Positions 747 to 8,171 of a DNA stretch of 8,171 bases are shown here, piece after piece. Every line of letters begins with the position of its first letter. Position 1 is the first letter of the stretch. Under the pieces are notes generated by a model. The model did not search any database. It saw nothing but the letters and a program-made list of their open reading frames with translations, and had not been told where the DNA came from. The stretch comes from an uncultured Eggerthellaceae bacterium. Its GTDB lineage: Bacteria > Actinomycetota > Coriobacteriia > Coriobacteriales > Eggerthellaceae. A program made the translations under genes and the position numbers. The stretch covers positions 1 through 8,171 of the forward strand of contig CABVEH010000046.1 in the NCBI GenBank assembly GCA_902497215.1, read 5' to 3'.

Positions 747-1559
747 ATGGCCGACACAGTCTCAACCAACACGAACAAGAACAACAAGAACAACGTCTCG
801 ACGGCCAAAGGCGTCGCCGGAGGGTACCTCTTCTCGGCTCCCGCGGGAACGCCGGTTCCCACGAATTTCTGGGACGAGCTGGACCCTGCGTTCAAGTGCC
901 TCGGCTACGTTGCCGAGGACGGCCTCGAGGAGGTCCCTGATGGCTCGGCTGACGACGTCACCGACATGAACGGCGACGTGGTTGGCGAGACAAACGAGAA
1001 GACCACCGAGACCCTCAAGTTCAAGCTGATGGAGATATCGGAGGAGTCCTTGGCCATGCGCTTCGGCCACGAAAACATCGACAGCTCCGATGCCGCTCAG
1101 CTCGTCGTCGACCACAACTGGTCCAAGGCCAAGGAGGAGAGGGCCATAGTCGCCGAGCTTGTTCTTAAGAACAAGCGCCGCTGGCGCAAGGTCATCTCAG
1201 ACAGCACCGTGAACGAGCGCGGGGGGATGCAGCTGAACGGCTCGAACGTCGCGGGCCACGAGGTGACGGTCAAGTACCTCAGCGACGCCGACGGATCCTG
1301 CGCGAAGGACTACATCCAGAAGCTTGATGCGCAGGGCAAGCCCATCGCGCACGCCGAAGAGACATCCGTCGACCCCCAGTCCGACGGGCAGGGCGCGCCC
1401 GAGGCGCAGACCCTGTCCGCTGACAGCGTGCAGGGCGACCTCGCCCTGCAGGACATGACAGTCGCCCAGCTCAGGGCATACGCCTCGAACGAAGGCGTTG
1501 ACCTGACTGGCAAGAACACGAAGCAGGAAATCATCGACGCCATCCTGGCGGCGATCTAA
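747..1559 (+). CDS. Major tail (tube) protein with C-terminal SAP/HeH-like domain
   Basis: This 270-residue protein is the likely tail tube subunit that polymerises around the tape measure. It opens with an Asn/Lys-rich arm (residues 8-16), then YLFSAPAGTPVPT and LGYVAEDGLEE, which match the start of the actinophage/phi13-type tail tube fold. KFKLMEISEESLAMRFG and a basic strand-rich part (RRWRKVIS, then VAGHEVTVKYLSDADG) continue the pattern. Residues about 191-235 form a Gln/Ala/Asp/Ser-rich linker. The last 34 residues (237-270, starting MTVAQLRAYASNEG) look like a SAP or HeH/LEM helix-extended-loop-helix domain, probably displayed on the tube's outer face. The ATG follows GGAAGGAGAGGC, among the strongest ribosome binding sites here, which fits an abundant protein. 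A frameshift is not needed to reach the tail domain. What the C-terminal domain binds is unknown. Confidence 0.82.
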   Translation: MADTVSTNTNKNNKNNVSTAKGVAGGYLFSAPAGTPVPTNFWDELDPAFKCLGYVAEDGLEEVPDGSADDVTDMNGDVVGETNEKTTETLKFKLMEISEESLAMRFGHENIDSSDAAQLVVDHNWSKAKEERAIVAELVLKNKRRWRKVISDSTVNERGGMQLNGSNVAGHEVTVKYLSDADGSCAKDYIQKLDAQGKPIAHAEETSVDPQSDGQGAPEAQTLSADSVQGDLALQDMTVAQLRAYASNEGVDLTGKNTKQEIIDAILAAI

Positions 1560-1814: not shown

Positions 1815-2218
1815 TCCTTCTGGCCCGCTGCTGGCTCGAGCGAAGATGCGAGCTCGAAGCAGACATGGCGCAGACCTACGGGATAAGGCTGGCTGATTAC
1901 GACTTGGACGGAGAGCCACCCGACGAAGACGTCAGGTGGCTCTCCTCTTTGTGCGCGCAACTCCCAGCCGACGCCCGCGTCCGCGTCATGGACGATCCTG
2001 ACCTGGCGTGGGACGACGCCACCAGGATGCAGCGAGCCATCGACTATCGGCTGCAGGAGATATCTTACCTGCTGCAGGGCAACAAAGGACAGAAGCCGAA
2101 GGCGCTCGACACGCCAAGCGAAGCTTCCCGCAAGGCCCAGATTGCCGAGGATTTCGACAAGAACCGTGCGATGGTCGACGAGCTGCTGGGCATCGTCCCC
2201 TTCGGGGGTGATGCCTGA
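1811..2218 (+). CDS. Tail assembly chaperone, frameshifted extension (gpT-like)
   Basis: This frame encodes the C-terminal part of the long chaperone, made when ribosomes slip -1 at 1805-1811. The fusion would be 214 residues: 79 from the upstream frame plus 135 here, beginning LILLARCWLERRCELEADMA. The extension is read through QTYGIRLADYDLDGEPP, a QTYGI segment typical of such extensions, then WLSSLCAQLPADARV, an ALAW-like DPDLAWDDATRMQRAIDYRLQEISYLL helix and a charged tail. In the family this part binds the tape measure and recruits tube subunits. The first ATG in frame (1865) lacks a clear ribosome binding site, and coding-like sequence with no stop continues upstream of it to the slip site, so independent initiation is unlikely. 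The stop TGA overlaps the tape measure ATG by one base. Confidence 0.8.
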   Translation, partial: LILLARCWLERRCELEADMAQTYGIRLADYDLDGEPPDEDVRWLSSLCAQLPADARVRVMDDPDLAWDDATRMQRAIDYRLQEISYLLQGNKGQKPKALDTPSEASRKAQIAEDFDKNRAMVDELLGIVPFGGDA

Positions 2219-4956
2219 TGGCCGGAATCGGAAACATAGGCACCGTCTACGTCAACGTCGCGCCATCCTCGTCGGGCTTCGCCAAGTCCCTGGGGGCCGC
2301 CGGCAGCGCCGGCGGAATCACCGCCGGCAACATGTTCAAGTCGTCCTTCGGGTCGATCGTCGGGGGCTCGGCCATAGGCAACGTCCTTGCAGCCGGGTTC
2401 TCGAAGGCGATGGGGGCGATATCCAGCTCCATGGGAGCTGCCGTATCGCGCGTTGACACGCTGAACAACTTCCCGAAGGTCATGGTCAACCTCGGCTATG
2501 GCGCCACCGAGGCCACAGCCTCGATCAACGCGCTGTCCGCAGGCATCGACGGCCTTCCTACGTCGCTCGACGGCATTGTGTCGATGACGCAGCAGCTCGC
2601 CCCATTGTGCGGCGGAATGGAAAAGGCGACGTCGCTTTCCCTGGCCATGAACAACATGTTCCTTGCATCCGGCGCATCTACTGCAGACCAGGCGAGAGCC
2701 ATGCAGCAGTACACGCAGATGCTGGGCCGCGGCAAGGTCGAGCTGAACGACTGGCGCACCCTCCAAGAGGTGATGCCTGGGCAGCTCAACCAGGTAGCCT
2801 CGGCGATGCTGGGCGTCGGCAAGAACTCCACCGACCTCTACGATGCATTGAAGTCCGGAAACGTGACGATGGACGACTTCAACGCAGCCGTCCTGAGGCT
2901 GAACCAGGAGGGCGTGAACGGGTTCGCGTCCTTCGAGGAGCAGGCAAGGACCTCCACGGAGGGCATCGGCACGGCCATGGAGAACGTGCAGAACCGCGTG
3001 GCCAAGGCCGTGGGCAAGGTCATAGACCACATTGGCCAGTCCAACATCTCGGGCGCCATCAACGGGTTCTCGTCGCAGTTCGGCGCGGTCGCCGACAAAT
3101 TCATTGCCATGTGGGACGGCATGATGTCGACGATCGACTTCGAGGGGTTCAAGACCGTATTTGGAGAGCTGCAATCAGCGGTCGGAGGCCTGTTTTCCCA
3201 GGGTGACACCGCTGCAACGTTCGGCGCGCAGCTTGGCACGGCCATAAACGGGCTCATACCCGTGATTCATGTACTGACGCCTTTCGTCCAGATGTTTGCG
3301 CTTGCCTTGAAAATAGCCATGGACAACGCGAGCTGGCTCATACCCGTCCTGCTCGTCGCTGTCGCGGCCTTCAAGGGCTTCGGAATCGTGAACACTGCAG
3401 CAGGCTTCCTGCAGGTGTTCACGGGCAAGGTGAAGCTGGCAAAGACCCCGACGGCGCAGTGTGCGAAGGAGATGCTTGGCGTCGGCGCAGCCGCATTGAT
3501 GGTCGGTGCAGGCGTCGCGCTTGCGTGCGCCGGCGTCTGGCTGCTTTCGAATGCGGCCATATCGCTTGCAAGCGAGGGGGGCATGGCCATTGTTGTCATG
3601 TTCGGAATGGTTGCGGCCGTTGCGGCCCTTGCGGTCGTGTTCGGCTTGCTGGCTCCGTCGCTGAGCTCCAGCGCGGTCGGATTGATCGCATTGGGGGCAT
3701 CGGTGCTTTTGGTGGCTGCAGGCCTGGCGATCCTTGCCACATGCGCGATAGCCTTGAGCGAAGCCGGGTCGCCGGCGATTCTCATGATGTTCGGAATGGT
3801 GGCCGTTGTTGCCGCGCTCGCCGTCGTGTTCGCGGCCCTGGGCCCGGTTCTGACCGCAGGCGCTGTCGGAATGCTCGCATTCGGGATGGCTGCGATGATG
3901 GTTGGCGTTGCGCTCGTGCTGGTTGCGACGTCAATCCTGATTGTGTCGACGTCGCTGCCTCTGCTGTCGCAATACGGAATGTCTGGGGCTGCCGCCCTGG
4001 TCTCGCTAGCAGGAGCCGTCGCACTTTGCGGCGCCGGCCTTCTGGTCATGGGCGCAGGTGCGCTGGTTGCTGCCGTAGGCGTCCTGGCGCTTGGCGCCGC
4101 CATTCTGGTGGCCGCTGTGGGAACGGCCATGCTGGCTGCTGCAGTTCTGGTGCTGTCGGCCGGAGTTCTTGTGCTTGGCGCAGGACTGATGCTCTGCGGC
4201 ACTGCAATGCTTCTGGTCGCGACAGGCGCCACGATGGGTGCCGCGGCATTGGCCATGATGGCGCCTGCTGCTCTCGCTGCAGCTCCCGGGTTGGCTGCGC
4301 TTGGCGTCTCTGCCGGCGCAGCCGCCCTTGGGCTGATGGCGGCTGTTCCAGGCCTTACGGGGCTTGCTGGCGCCGCAATGATGGGAGCCGCCGGAATCCT
4401 GGGCATAGCTGCAGGCTTCACGTCTGCAACGGCCACGTGCTCGTCGTATTCAGCGGCCATGGCCAAGGCGCAGAAGACTACAGACAGTTCCTGCAATTCC
4501 ATGTCTCAGAACATGGAGAAGCTTAAGAACAAGGCGTCCTCTACCGTCTCGCAGATTGTTCAGCAGTTTTCCGGGATGAGGCTCTACATCCCGTCGCCTC
4601 AGCTGGGCCCCATGCCGCATTTCTACATAAACGGCAGCTTCAACATGGAGACGGGAAGCGTCCCAACCATCGGCGTCAACTGGTACGCAAGGGGAGCGGT
4701 CTTCAAGAAGGCCTCGATCGTCGGAGTTGCAGAAGCCGGCGACGAGATGGCGCTGCCCCTCGACAACAAGAGCGCGACGGCACCCTTGGCGAACCAGATC
4801 GCCGATTGCGTGGTCGGCCGACAAAGCGAAACCGCCGACAAGATCGCAAGCCTGCTCGTCCAGGTCGTCTACCTGTTGGAAGAGATATCCGGGCGAATAC
4901 CAAAGGCAACGTCGGCCAGGGACATGAGGAGGATGCAGGCTTATGCACGCACTTAG
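2218..4956 (+). CDS. Tape measure protein
   Basis: This 912-residue protein sets tail length and is expelled before the DNA. Residues about 79-250 carry the classic tape measure N-terminal domain: VDTLNNFPKVMVNLGY, GIDGLPTSLDG, MLGRGKVELNDWRTLQEVMPG (split across about 168-188) and the following Gln/Asn-rich helices. From about 373, and densely from about 423 to 735, it is extremely hydrophobic, made almost only of Ala, Val, Leu, Gly and Met, with many possible membrane-spanning segments. A near-repeat FGMVA-x-VAALAVVF recurs at residues 462 and 525, 63 residues apart. The C-terminus has RLYIPSPQLG, then WYARGAVFKKASIVGVAEAG and DEMALPLDN (about 836-849), matching the GEAGPEAVLPL motif of this family. 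The ATG overlaps the chaperone stop (TGATG) and is preceded by GGGGGTGAT. By the usual 1.5 angstroms per residue it predicts a tail near 135 nm. Confidence 0.93.
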   Translation: MAGIGNIGTVYVNVAPSSSGFAKSLGAAGSAGGITAGNMFKSSFGSIVGGSAIGNVLAAGFSKAMGAISSSMGAAVSRVDTLNNFPKVMVNLGYGATEATASINALSAGIDGLPTSLDGIVSMTQQLAPLCGGMEKATSLSLAMNNMFLASGASTADQARAMQQYTQMLGRGKVELNDWRTLQEVMPGQLNQVASAMLGVGKNSTDLYDALKSGNVTMDDFNAAVLRLNQEGVNGFASFEEQARTSTEGIGTAMENVQNRVAKAVGKVIDHIGQSNISGAINGFSSQFGAVADKFIAMWDGMMSTIDFEGFKTVFGELQSAVGGLFSQGDTAATFGAQLGTAINGLIPVIHVLTPFVQMFALALKIAMDNASWLIPVLLVAVAAFKGFGIVNTAAGFLQVFTGKVKLAKTPTAQCAKEMLGVGAAALMVGAGVALACAGVWLLSNAAISLASEGGMAIVVMFGMVAAVAALAVVFGLLAPSLSSSAVGLIALGASVLLVAAGLAILATCAIALSEAGSPAILMMFGMVAVVAALAVVFAALGPVLTAGAVGMLAFGMAAMMVGVALVLVATSILIVSTSLPLLSQYGMSGAAALVSLAGAVALCGAGLLVMGAGALVAAVGVLALGAAILVAAVGTAMLAAAVLVLSAGVLVLGAGLMLCGTAMLLVATGATMGAAALAMMAPAALAAAPGLAALGVSAGAAALGLMAAVPGLTGLAGAAMMGAAGILGIAAGFTSATATCSSYSAAMAKAQKTTDSSCNSMSQNMEKLKNKASSTVSQIVQQFSGMRLYIPSPQLGPMPHFYINGSFNMETGSVPTIGVNWYARGAVFKKASIVGVAEAGDEMALPLDNKSATAPLANQIADCVVGRQSETADKIASLLVQVVYLLEEISGRIPKATSARDMRRMQAYART

Positions 4957-5770
4957 GTACGTAAGCGCGTCCGGCCTTGTGGTCGAGATGGACGGCCCTT
5001 CCACGTGGGCTGGAACCGCGCTGGACATGCGCGCGAACAAGTGGGACTACGAACTGGGGGCGCGCCGCCTGAAGCGCGCCCTCAGAAAGGCCTGGACCCC
5101 AGAGGTCGAGGTCTACTTCGGAAACTCGAAGGACGCCGACGTCGCCGCTGCAATCTTCGACGCGGACGTGGGGGCGGGGATCCCTGGAATGTTTTATGCC
5201 AACGGCTGCCATCAGCCAGGCTACTGTTTGGGACTCGTGCCGCTCAACCTCACCAGAAGGGGATTGAAGGCCAAGCTGCAGATCGCCCTGCTCGACGGGG
5301 TATGGCGCATCCCTGAGACGTATCACCTGTTCCCGCAATCTGGTGACATCAACGGAACCAAGGTGTACCCGCTCCGGTACCCATACACCTACGGTTCCTC
5401 TCTGGGTGTCAGGTATCTGAACATAGGTGACATGCTTCCGATTGCCTGGAAGATGGTCATCTACGGGTATGCCGTCACGCCTCAGCTGACAATCGGCGGG
5501 AACGTCTACCAGTTCGACGTGACGGTGCCGGACGGCGGTTACCTCGAGGTCGACACCTCGCCTGCAGATCCCACGGTTAGGCTCGTCACGGCAGACGGCG
5601 CCTCGATGGATGCCTTCGACTGCGCGCAGCGTGGCTCCGGCCCCGGTTGCGGAGCTTATGCGTTCGAGCGCATCAGCCCTGGCCGCAAGCCTGTCTACTG
5701 GAACGATTCCTTCGGCACGGATTTGACCGTTTACCACGAAACGGGGTGTCCGCCCAATGCTTGCGACTAG
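4943..5770 (+). CDS. Distal tail protein (Dit-like)
   Basis: This 275-residue protein probably forms the hexameric ring at the tail tip that joins tube to hub and fibres. The N-terminal part (LRYVSASGLVVEMDG, then TALDMRANKWDYELG) resembles the start of siphophage Dit proteins, and the middle is rich in short strands and Tyr/Gly. Residues about 180-230 (YGYAVTPQLTIGGNVYQFDVTVPDGGYLEVD) resemble the C-terminal galectin-like part of Dit proteins. No catalytic motif is seen. It begins inside the last codons of the tape measure gene (14-base overlap) and uses AGGAGG at 4927-4932, 10 bases before the ATG. It overlaps the next gene by 14 bases, so the tape measure, Dit and hub genes look translationally coupled. 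The tape measure-Dit-hub order is the standard siphophage order and supports the call. Confidence 0.78.
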   Translation: MHALRYVSASGLVVEMDGPSTWAGTALDMRANKWDYELGARRLKRALRKAWTPEVEVYFGNSKDADVAAAIFDADVGAGIPGMFYANGCHQPGYCLGLVPLNLTRRGLKAKLQIALLDGVWRIPETYHLFPQSGDINGTKVYPLRYPYTYGSSLGVRYLNIGDMLPIAWKMVIYGYAVTPQLTIGGNVYQFDVTVPDGGYLEVDTSPADPTVRLVTADGASMDAFDCAQRGSGPGCGAYAFERISPGRKPVYWNDSFGTDLTVYHETGCPPNACD

Positions 5771-6749
5771 GACGCCTCTGATAGTAATAGATCCATCGGG
5801 CAAGGCATTGGGCTCGATTTCGGACTACACGCTGGAACTTTCCTACGGCGAAGACGAGTGCGACTTCACGCTCTCCGACATAAACGCGGTCGTCATGCCT
5901 GTCCCCCATGGGCGCATAGGCATCGATGGGTCGCAGTACGCAGGCGTAGTGGACACCATGAGCGTGGATTCGGAGGAGGGGAAGGGCGACTCGTTGTCTT
6001 TCGCCGGGCGCACGATGCAGGGGATTGCCGTCGACGCCGTGATTATGCCCCCGTCCGGAAGCACGCACGAAGTGGTGTCAGGGACTCTTTCGGAGGTTGC
6101 AGAGCGAGAGATTTCACGCTGCGGGCTGTCCGACGTATTCTCGGTCGACAAATGCGACGTGCGTGTCTCCAGCTATGCGTTCAACCGATTCGTGAACCTC
6201 TACGACGGGCTGAGGATGCTGGCTGGAAAAGTCGATTACAGGCCGGGCTTCTACTTCCTCGAAGGAGAATTCCGGATCAGGTTCGAACCCAAGAACGCCT
6301 ACGGAACCGCTGCAGGCGAGCGCGTCTATTACAACTTCGACAAGGCCTACAGACCCATCAACGGAATCATAGGCCTGGGCTCGGGGCAAGGCCTAAGCCG
6401 CCTGACGTCCATATGGTACGCGTCCGAAACGGGCGCCGTGAGCCGTACGCAGAGCCTGTTCGGCGTAGACGCACGGATCATGACCTACCAGCTCAATTCG
6501 TCGGACCAGGCCGAGCTCGACTCTAAGGCAAAGGCGAAACTCGAGGAGATTCAAAAGAAGAACCAGGCTGACATTACCCTCCCCGAAGGCGTCGTGCTGG
6601 ACGTTGGGGACACGGTCAGGTTCTCCAAGCCCGAATACTCGATCGACGAATCCCTCGAGGTGTTACGCGTCGTTCTAAACGCCAAGGAAGGCGTCTGCAC
6701 GCCGGACTGCGAATTTGGCCTGGCCGATTGGCCAGAAGACGAAGACTAG
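5757..6749 (+). CDS. Tail tip hub / Tal-like protein (Gp37-like)
   Basis: This 330-residue protein is likely the baseplate hub that closes the tail tip and opens during DNA ejection. The beginning (TPLIVIDPSGKALGSISDYTLELSYGEDECDFTLS) is typical of the siphophage ReqiPepy6 Gp37/Tal hub family; in that family the fold is related to T4 gp27. Later parts include LSFAGRTMQGI (about residues 81-91), a helical insert, RPINGIIGLGSGQG (about 199-212) and a C-terminal segment VVLDVGDTVRFSKPEYSIDESLEVLRV, as seen at the ends of such hubs. There is no obvious peptidase or muramidase domain after the hub, unlike long Tal proteins, so cell-wall digestion is not encoded here. The ATG lies within the Dit reading frame with GGGGTG upstream (5743-5748). 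Eight bases separate its stop from the next gene. Confidence 0.72.
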   Translation: MLATRTPLIVIDPSGKALGSISDYTLELSYGEDECDFTLSDINAVVMPVPHGRIGIDGSQYAGVVDTMSVDSEEGKGDSLSFAGRTMQGIAVDAVIMPPSGSTHEVVSGTLSEVAEREISRCGLSDVFSVDKCDVRVSSYAFNRFVNLYDGLRMLAGKVDYRPGFYFLEGEFRIRFEPKNAYGTAAGERVYYNFDKAYRPINGIIGLGSGQGLSRLTSIWYASETGAVSRTQSLFGVDARIMTYQLNSSDQAELDSKAKAKLEEIQKKNQADITLPEGVVLDVGDTVRFSKPEYSIDESLEVLRVVLNAKEGVCTPDCEFGLADWPEDED

Positions 6750-6757
6750 GAGATAGC

Positions 6758-7003
6758 ATGCCCAGACGCACGAACATCACGCAGTGCGAATGCGACCGCT
6801 GCGAGTACAAGGAAATATTGGACGACGATTCTCCCACTGCCGCAGATTGGCATGACGTTGACCGTATCACAGCCGAGGGCAAGGCGCGCCACATGCTGCT
6901 TTGCAAAGGCTGCTACGAGAAATACAAGGACCTTGTTAACAAAGAGGACACGCAGTACCGCTTGTTCATGGGGGAGAGTACCAACTATGACGATCAATCT
7001 TAG
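6758..7003 (+). CDS. Small Cys-rich, zinc-ribbon-like protein
   Basis: I do not recognise this 81-residue protein. It has five cysteines: C10, C12 and C15 (CECDRC) and C49 and C52 (LCKGCYEKY), an arrangement that could bind one zinc as a ribbon. Between them is an acidic segment with Asp/Glu and a His at 45. The rest is charged with no membrane segment or signal peptide. The ATG is chosen because AGGAGA lies 4 bases upstream; an in-frame TTG at 6728 would be inside the hub gene and lacks such support. The gene sits between hub and fibre genes, overlapping the fibre start by 17 bases, so it is co-translated with the tip proteins. It could be a tip assembly factor or a regulator carried in the block. 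Sequence alone cannot decide. Confidence 0.72.
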   Translation: MPRRTNITQCECDRCEYKEILDDDSPTAADWHDVDRITAEGKARHMLLCKGCYEKYKDLVNKEDTQYRLFMGESTNYDDQS

Positions 7004-7850
7004 AACCGGCCTTACCGACAAGAGCGTACCTGCAGCTGCAGACCGGTCCCTTTATGCCGGCATAGCAGGCCCGGACGACTATGTACTAGACGATGGCGCA
7101 AAGCTGGCCGCCTCTCTCAGGGACGCCAACCACCTGGTTGTACAGGACGGATCCGCAATCATGTGCGGCGCTCATGTAACTTTCGACGGAACGACGGAGT
7201 TCGTCATCCCCTCAGGCGTGCAGGGCGCAAAGCGATCGAACATTGCAGTTGCCAGATTCTCGACAGATGGCGACACGGAAAAATGCGATGCGCTGGTGCT
7301 TTCGGGCGAACCTGTTACTGACGGCACACCTCCGGACCCTGAATTATCAACAGGAGACATTCGCGAAGGTGCAACCGTGCATGACATGAAGCTATATCGT
7401 GTCGTGACGGACGGAATAACCGCGCTGACCCCGGAACCTTTATTCAGCGTGCTCACGCCGATGTCCGAGCTTCAGAAGGCTTGGGATTCCATATCCCAGC
7501 GAAAGAAGCTTCTATGGAACGGGTGGCTGCAAGGCTCGGGCTCGCTTGAATTAGGTGACCTGTCTAGCTACAGGGCGCTGCTGCTGGAGTTCGACACAAA
7601 CTCGAATCGAGGCATATGTGCAGTCCCATGCGTCGATGGGACGTGGAAGATTGGAGACGCCCACGGCATCCCCGGGAATTTCGGCGGCAAGTGGGCCGTC
7701 AATTTCCTCGGCGTGGCAGTGACGATCAGCGGCGACACGCTTAGCTTCAGCGACGCAAAATACAGCATCTACTCGACCGTTGGGCTTGGAAGCGCACTGC
7801 TTTTCAGCGCCGGCGACATAAGCGGCCTCGCGGCCGTCTACGGGATATAG
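6987..7850 (+). CDS. Receptor-binding / tail fibre protein with switchable C-terminus
   Basis: This 287-residue protein is probably the host-contacting fibre or baseplate protein. Residues about 23-92 (YAGIAGPDDYVLDDG, ANHLVVQDGSAIMCG and HVTFDGTTEFVIPSG, then RSNIAVARF) are a recognisable N-terminal attachment domain of phage receptor-binding proteins. A short helical link follows (SELQKAWDSISQ, about 160-171). From there the C-terminal 120 residues, beginning RKKLLWNGWLQGSGSLELG, form a strand-rich, Gly/Ser-rich tip of the kind that varies between strains. The ATG at 6987 is preferred because GGGGGAGAG lies 9-17 bases upstream; an in-frame ATG at 6852 would add 45 residues of Arg/Thr-rich, non-protein-like sequence. 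At codons 167-171 (DSISQ) it contains a 17-bp dyad sequence that recurs inverted at 8115-8131. Its stop is followed 2 bases later by a minus-strand frame, so the present tip may be one of two alternatives. Confidence 0.78.
   Translation: MTINLRTGLTDKSVPAAADRSLYAGIAGPDDYVLDDGAKLAASLRDANHLVVQDGSAIMCGAHVTFDGTTEFVIPSGVQGAKRSNIAVARFSTDGDTEKCDALVLSGEPVTDGTPPDPELSTGDIREGATVHDMKLYRVVTDGITALTPEPLFSVLTPMSELQKAWDSISQRKKLLWNGWLQGSGSLELGDLSSYRALLLEFDTNSNRGICAVPCVDGTWKIGDAHGIPGNFGGKWAVNFLGVAVTISGDTLSFSDAKYSIYSTVGLGSALLFSAGDISGLAAVYGI
7482..7498 (+). repeat. Left copy of inverted 17-bp dyad (candidate inversion site)
   Basis: The sequence TGGGATTCCATATCCCA has perfect 6-bp arms (TGGGAT / ATCCCA) around the centre TCCAT. 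It lies inside the fibre gene, covering parts of codons 166-171. It matches the reverse complement of 8115-8131 at 14 of 17 positions, including ten in a row. Dyad arms around a short core are the form of serine or tyrosine recombinase crossover sites. Confidence 0.6.
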
Positions 7851-7852
7851 GA

Positions 7853-8128
7853 CTACATCGGCTCTACAAGCAGCACGCCATACGAAACTACGCACTGAGC
7901 AAGCGCGACGCTGCACAGTTGGAGATGCCTGTCATCGTCGTCGGCTGGCCAGTGGTAAGTCACGAAGAACCGCTGCCCATAGTCGGGCAGGGCGATGGGT
8001 ATTGGTCGCTTCTTGAAGCCGTAGGACGATAGGTCGAGGTTTTCCTCCAGGGCGTCTGGCGGGTTGATGACTTTGCCAGTGTTATGCCGGAAGAACACCA
8101 CCCGCCGGACACCATGAGATATGGAATG
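7853..8128 (-). CDS. Silent alternative tail-fibre C-terminal cassette
   Basis: The minus strand is open from just after a TGA (8129-8131) to a TAG at 7853-7855, 91 codons, with GC-rich third positions like the neighbouring genes. The product resembles the tip of a tail fibre: NPPDALEENLDLSSYGF, then KKRPIPIALPDYGQRFFVTY, a charged turn, and a closing CVVSYGVLLVEPM strand. The forward fibre tip also contains DLSSY, but otherwise the two tips differ. The first codons (H-SIS-H) line up in phase with codons 167-171 of the fibre gene (D-SIS-Q) through the shared 17-bp site, so inversion would create a 257-residue fibre. The nearest start codons are GTG at 8099-8101 and 8096-8098 with no convincing ribosome binding site. 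It is therefore read as a promoterless, start-less cassette expressed only after flipping. A remnant of an older fibre gene is the alternative. Confidence 0.62.
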   Translation of the reverse strand, partial: HSISHGVRRVVFFRHNTGKVINPPDALEENLDLSSYGFKKRPIPIALPDYGQRFFVTYHWPADDDDRHLQLCSVALAQCVVSYGVLLVEPM

Positions 8129-8131
8129 TCA
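8115..8131 (-). repeat. Right copy of inverted 17-bp dyad (candidate inversion site)
   Basis: On the minus strand this reads TGACATTCCATATCTCA. Its arms TGACAT and ATCTCA are complementary at 5 of 6 positions around the same TCCAT centre found in the fibre gene. It lies at the 5' boundary of the minus-strand cassette, with the in-frame TGA at its edge. The similarity to 7482-7498 does not extend past the 17 bases on either side. Confidence 0.6.
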
Positions 8132-8141
8132 GATAGCCGGA

Positions 8142-8171
8142 ATGTACAACACGAACGCGCTAGGCGTTGCC
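8142..8171 (+). CDS. Possible start of the next plus-strand gene (truncated by window end)
   Basis: An ATG at 8142 opens a frame reading MYNTNALGVA to the window edge. A weak CCGGA lies a few bases before it. If the inversion reading is right, it is the first sequence outside the invertible segment. Ten codons are too few to identify a product. An overlapping frame from ATG 8114 or 8126 is also open to the edge and cannot be excluded. Confidence 0.2.
   Translation, partial: MYNTNALGVA

Follow-up and report, generated by a model that had tools for sequence, protein, structure and literature searches.

A probable Rin-type invertible tip segment in the receptor-binding-protein gene of a siphophage tail region

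Introduction

The Rin system, as set out in the available sections of the 2018 paper on Bifidobacterium prophages, combines a 168-residue constant part with 95- to 100-residue tips, rix sites with the sequence TTCCCTAACCC and a XerD-like tyrosine recombinase, and its inversions were seen in both prophage and virion reads (PMC6109161). The same sections liken the constant part of the Rin fibres to a protein of phage 1358, suggest a recombinase acting in trans for prophages 689b-1/Bb423phi2, and refer to Gin/Cin/Min inversion, which exchanges fibre C-termini (PMC6109161). Excerpts of a 2022 paper report that E. lenta clade 1 prophages carry Rin with ttccgtat repeats, and there a tyrosine recombinase adjoins small tip genes (PMC8778435).

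Here we analysed a stretch of 8,171 nucleotides (the window), for which an earlier note, made from its letters, had proposed an invertible segment that swaps the tip of a tail fibre, and we compared it with these systems and with related loci.

Results

A tail-gene block with a predicted receptor-binding protein

The window contains a siphophage tail-gene block on the plus strand (Table 1), in which the tail tube and the tape measure have matches from mixed hosts. The tail tube also carries a C-terminal Rho_N/SAP-like stretch at residues 234-269 (E 9e-7). Matches of the fibre to PHROG 9994, 13141 and 25635 are restricted to its constant part. The AlphaFold2 model is mostly confident for residues 21-170, with a terminal helix at 159-169 and the tip (171-287) left unmodelled, and its top PDB matches are receptor-binding proteins of the lactococcal phages p2 (E 1e-4) and 1358 (E 3e-3). 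The constant part superposes poorly on these proteins (rmsd above 8 Å), thus the structural match backs the protein class only, and at that level the model supports the fibre as a receptor-binding protein.

The small frame before the fibre contains two cysteine pairs (CDRC...CKGC). A similar Cys-rich frame directly precedes the fibre in loci L003 and L004, and a small gene occupies the matching position in PMBT6 and ctl617.

Table 1 Features of the window and the basis of their assignment
Feature	Position	Strand	Basis or remark
Tail tube	747-1559	+	Open reading frame and profile matches
Tape measure	2218-4956	+	Open reading frame and profile matches
Gene in Dit position	4943-5770	+	PHROG Dit match only at E 0.26
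Minor tail protein	5757-6749	+	Open reading frame and profile matches
Small Cys-rich open reading frame	6758-7003	+	Overlaps fibre start
Predicted fibre/receptor-binding protein, 287 aa (constant part, residues 1-170, and active tip)	6987..7850	+	
Site 1, rix-like, inside the fibre gene, codons W-D-S-I-S	7482..7498	+	Position and motif as in relatives
Active tip, 117 residues and stop	7499..7850	+	Resembles inverted tips in L127 and L107
Silent tip frame HSISHGVRR...LLVEPM and stop, 91 residues	7853..8128	-	Open frame, back to back with active tip
Site 2, rix-like, inverted	8115..8131	-	Preceded by in-frame TGA (8129-8131), giving (stop)HSIS
Probable C-terminus of an additional silent tip, ...ATPSAFVLYIPAI, truncated at the window edge	8132..8170	-	Resembles P0002 tip end

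Two inverted sites share sequence and codon phase

The 17-bp sequence that had been noticed inside the fibre gene indeed recurs in inverted orientation as site 2. Site 1 reads TGGGATTCCATATCCCA on the plus strand and site 2 reads TGACATTCCATATCTCA on the minus strand; 14/17 bases are alike, including an uninterrupted identical run of ten bases, ATTCCATATC, and an inverted-repeat search recovered the pair as 13 nt at 92%, 616 nt apart. The codon phase is the same at both sites, as had been claimed (x-SIS-x), the fibre reading WDSISQ and the minus frame (stop)HSISH. The back-to-back stops were likewise confirmed, those of the fibre (7848-7850) and the minus frame (7853-7855) being separated by two bases. 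The dyad symmetry attributed to both copies is perfect (6+6) in site 1 and holds for 5/6 in site 2.

The chance of one in ten given in the earlier note covered any shared 10-mer, whereas the hinge position within the fibre is known independently from homologues and therefore permits a stricter test. When the hinge 17-mer was compared with 5000 dinucleotide shuffles of 7502-8171, 14/17 identity was reached in 8, a 10-base run in 20 and both in 2. Among control 17-mers taken from the constant part at every fifth base, 0/96 reached 14, the best being 13. Chance is a poor explanation because both features arise in 2/5000 shuffles and no control reaches 14.

Active and silent tips

Two other shufflons have, downstream of their fibre genes, inverted tips that resemble the active tip of the window: L127 (30% over 113 aa, 4e-9) and L107 (26% over 114 aa, 7e-7). 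The silent tip frame is the best of six frames by codon usage and the sole stop-free one, with weak support (0.026 bits per codon; active tip, 0.253), and no homologue of it was found in the phage collection or the protein database. The 90-residue replacement tip described earlier stands as an intact in-frame alternative, with its length corrected to 87 residues after SIS, or 91 counting HSIS.

The minus-strand stretch past site 2 translates as ATPSAFVLYIPAI, and its stop falls exactly at the site. In relatives, the stop before an inner site may be that of the next tip, and the one at the outermost site that of the recombinase gene rin (L001). ATPSAFVLYIPAI is identical at 6/13 positions to the last 13 residues of the tip of P0002, the protein described below, with a BLOSUM62 score of 44, and the other 227 stop-anchored 13-mers of the window score at most 9 against this end. 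That comparison against P0002 alone repeated a broader test in which 3/228 controls reached the score because they included the query itself and two members of the target set. None of the rin C-termini compared is similar to ATPSAFVLYIPAI, the best true rin scoring below 1 and two distant recombinases 6 and 2. Given the likeness to the P0002 end and to no rin C-terminus, we infer a minimum of three tips for the phage of the window, including a relative of the one displayed by P0002. The locus probably extends beyond 7482-8131 and has one or more additional minus-strand tips past the right edge.

A near-identical constant part carries a different tip in P0002

Among about 5.8 billion proteins searched, 4 matched the fibre, the nearest being P0002. 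It is identical to the window fibre at 167/170 residues of the constant part and continues with another tip directly after DSIS. With the P0002 tip as query, no match except itself was obtained. P0002 thus shows that this constant part occurs in nature with a different tip, which is consistent with inversion; phage tail genes often exchange modules, and such exchange between phages could be the alternative source of the tip of P0002, which is known here as a protein alone.

Related loci pair the fibre with an opposite-strand tyrosine recombinase

IMG/VR was scanned with the fibre, the constant-part alignment, the minor tail protein, the tape measure and the exact 18-base site, and yielded no relative by these queries. 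Blastn against phages returned 2 records, matching tape-measure DNA only, and none for 6700-8171. At the protein level, the fibre matched 4 records in the phage collection, namely PMBT6 (twice), ctl617 and one unannotated fecal record; in the fecal record MT837478 (L091), the fibre is distant and no such site was seen by eye after it. PMBT6 and ctl617 share the gene order of the window and the same hinge site with copies downstream, and each carries a minus-strand "integrase" (tyrosine recombinase) downstream, with repeated sites TTCCGTAACCC between fibre and recombinase. PF00589 (tyrosine recombinase) was found in both related-locus recombinases tested.

A genome scan gave three Bifidobacterium prophages with the fibre, and 3/3 have a downstream recombinase of the Rin family, the copy in L005 being interrupted by stops. 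In L003 (B. tissieri), two tips lie back to back between perfect 19-bp inverted repeats with rin alongside, an arrangement that makes it, as judged from these frames and repeats, the closest anatomical copy of the window layout. The earlier note had suggested comparing related prophages for the opposite orientation, and one such case was found, in the prophages of B. tissieri and B. vansinderenii: the tip active in L003 lies inverted in L004 (88% over 115 aa), and the tip active in L004 lies inverted in L003 (82% over 112 aa). Therefore, both orientations of one layout exist in nature. In the B. choladohabitans prophage L005, the recombinase (11061-11840) contains several stops while the hinge site and one inverted copy are kept, and the locus is to all appearance locked. 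In L014, a segment resembling the PMBT6 tip (8457-8735) lies directly upstream of the fibre on the same strand, and the stretch contains no rin match.

Four recombinase queries retrieved 34 IMG/VR loci, and a fibre of the window's family is present in 24/34, on the strand opposite to rin in 24/24; among the ten loci without a fibre, several are on short contigs and two have distant recombinases. In Bifidobacteriaceae, the fibre matched in 20/189 genomes at 23 places, and a recombinase match lies nearby in 10/23 stretches examined (one broken by stops, one partial), several of the 23 stretches ending at contig ends. In two further families of the same phylum, the fibre matched in 11/138 and 9/140 genomes, and a rin-like recombinase is present in 7/21 stretches, with a weak match in L133. 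Of these 7 stretches, 5 have the hinge site and inverted copies of it; L115 and L133 have a recombinase and no hinge site with inverted copies where examined. The window itself, which ends 40 bp past site 2, contains no recombinase gene. Since rin often, but not always, accompanies this fibre family, we consider it likely rather than certain that the window locus has it alongside.

The site falls in a series with a variable core dinucleotide

A site of this kind occupies the fibre hinge in 36 distinct relatives, nearly all with downstream copies and an opposite-strand rin. The hinge reads TGGGATTC-NN-T(A/G)(A/T)CC(C) in most relatives and GGGGATTCCGTATCCC, CGGGATTCCNTATCCC or GGGGAATCCGTATCCC in the two further families, where the site layout was checked in the recombinase-bearing stretches together with the window. 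The ATTCCATATCCCA of the window falls within this series. The site, which had not been recognised from any known system, can thus be placed as a variant of the published rix site.

Among 40 loci with the hinge core (34 distinct hinges), the distinct ones contain 104 further copies, 72 inverted and 32 direct, counted with the dinucleotide of the hinge itself and at most one mismatch required and with L107 skipped for lack of the hinge pattern; some of these copies are probably false sites, for example one inside rin of L002. An in-frame stop directly precedes 67/104 of the copies, like the TGA of the window, and the silent sites of L127 read TAG CAT TCC GTA TCC, that is (stop)HSVS versus (stop)HSIS in the window. 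The inverted match of the hinge does not rise above controls in several relatives (as-good controls: L001 95/96, L072 91/93, L073 50/96, L065 13/96), and in L072 and L073 the hinge 17-mer has no good inverted partner.

When the dinucleotide was left free in 37 distinct loci (the window and 36 relatives), 105 further core-like sites carried the pair of their hinge and 34 another, of which one looked true by eye (L069, TAGCTTTCCGTAACCC). The hinge dinucleotides are CG in 20, CC in 10, GC in 4, and AC, CT and CA in 1 each, CA being that of the window, where both copies keep it within the ten-base core. The core TTCCATATC, as read from these letters, is new in the window. The dyad TGGGAT...ATCCCA probably represents the arms bound by the recombinase, and the strand-exchange region, where tyrosine recombinases need identity, probably contains the variable pair.

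An inverted repeat precedes rin in relatives

Within 150 bp upstream of rin in L001-L005 and L037-L088, a region outside the window, we found the repeat AA[AT]CCCA-N30-36-TGGG[AT]TT, often AAACCCACACG...CGTGTGGGTTT, in 29/34 distinct upstream regions. The pattern was written after inspecting those upstream regions, and it has no other match in the 327,629 bases of those loci. Its arms resemble the rix arms, and the repeat is a candidate operator or binding site of Rin. The words palindrome, operator, promoter and dyad do not occur in the 2018 Rin paper (PMC6109161); relative to that paper, the conserved inverted repeat before rin, seen in relatives only, is new here.

Discussion

The layout agrees with the published descriptions, as far as the available text goes, of the Rin loci of Bb423phi1, Bl30698phi1 and Bl157phi1, in which the constant part has 168 residues (about 170 in the window) and the tips 95-100 (about 90-117), and in which a site lies inside the gene and at the silent-tip start, with tips downstream on the opposite strand (PMC6109161). 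In contrast to the TTCCCTAACCC published for those phages, which the hinges of L067, L069 and L078 carry, the window has the core TTCCATATC, and its tips are unrelated as far as searched. Compared by partial description with E. lenta clade 1 Rin, the TTCCATAT of the window is one base off ttccgtat, whereas the constant gene there is described as much larger (PMC8778435). A constant N-terminus with exchangeable tips is indicated in the window by homology to the fibres of rin-bearing loci and by P0002; an in-phase crossover site lies in the gene and, inverted, at the silent-tip start; and of the silent, mutually dissimilar tips of a Rin shufflon the window has one complete 91-residue frame, of weak codon support, and a probable further end.

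The invertible, tip-swapping segment of the earlier note is supported by the homologues' hinge site, inverted copies, opposite-strand recombinase and reciprocal orientations. On these comparisons it is highly probable that a Rin-type shufflon, with 7482-8131 as its first unit, lies in the receptor-binding-protein gene; the siphophage concerned probably infects Actinomycetota. The window is very likely a further example, with its own core, of the Rin switch known from related gut-bacterial phages. The constant domain would be joined at the rix-like site to one of several tips, with a silent tip placed back to back on the other strand and starting at the inverted copy of the site. The switch would be worked by a Rin tyrosine recombinase, whose gene is expected on the minus strand past the right edge of the window: by recombining the inverted sites it would flip the segment and fuse the other tip in frame to the constant domain, and the phage population would thus carry more than one receptor specificity.

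The shufflon could instead be decayed or locked, with the recombinase lost or site 2 dead and the tip fixed, or be flipped by a recombinase in trans. The 13/23 Bifidobacteriaceae fibre places without a recombinase in the stretch examined, the stop-interrupted recombinase of L005 and the imperfection of site 2 speak for this reading; however, the 10-base core is intact in both copies, both tips are open, and the variable dinucleotide CA is identical in the two sites, as relatives keep theirs, and we regard it as unlikely. That a chance inverted repeat meets a spurious minus frame, with the P0002 tip acquired by ordinary module exchange, would fit the habit of tail genes to trade modules and a silent frame with weak codon support and no homologue, yet it is very improbable in view of the shuffles, the use of this very position for the site in relatives, the relative-like (stop)HSIS start with its abutting in-frame stop and the existence of inverted relatives of the active tip.

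The analogy drawn earlier with phages Mu and P1 concerns the outcome: in the Gin/Cin/Min systems (Mu, P1, p15B), as proposed for the window, inversion exchanges the C-terminal part of the tail fibre. Those systems use serine recombinases and other sites, gix/cix-type crossover sites being 26 bp, whereas the homologous fibres have a tyrosine recombinase alongside and the window site belongs to the rix series, and a serine-invertase switch is accordingly the reading we consider extremely improbable. Because the recombinases of the related loci are of the tyrosine type, the likeness to Mu and P1 is functional only, and the published Rin system is the one to which the Rin-type shufflon proposed here belongs.

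More broadly, and tentatively, Rin shufflons may be widespread in actinobacterial siphophages, with a core dinucleotide (CG, CC, GC, AC, CT or CA) that diverges between lineages while one pair is kept within each phage, so that the recombination of each lineage would be largely insulated from that of its relatives, and with rin controlled by, or its product bound to, the rix-armed inverted repeat before it; the lineage of the window would then be one with three or more tips and a core of its own. One assembled fibre sequence would under-represent such a phage population, which matters for predicting the hosts of gut phages. Moreover, the loci collected here may ease testing how an arm-less tyrosine recombinase picks inverted sites and avoids deletions, a question raised in the Rin literature.
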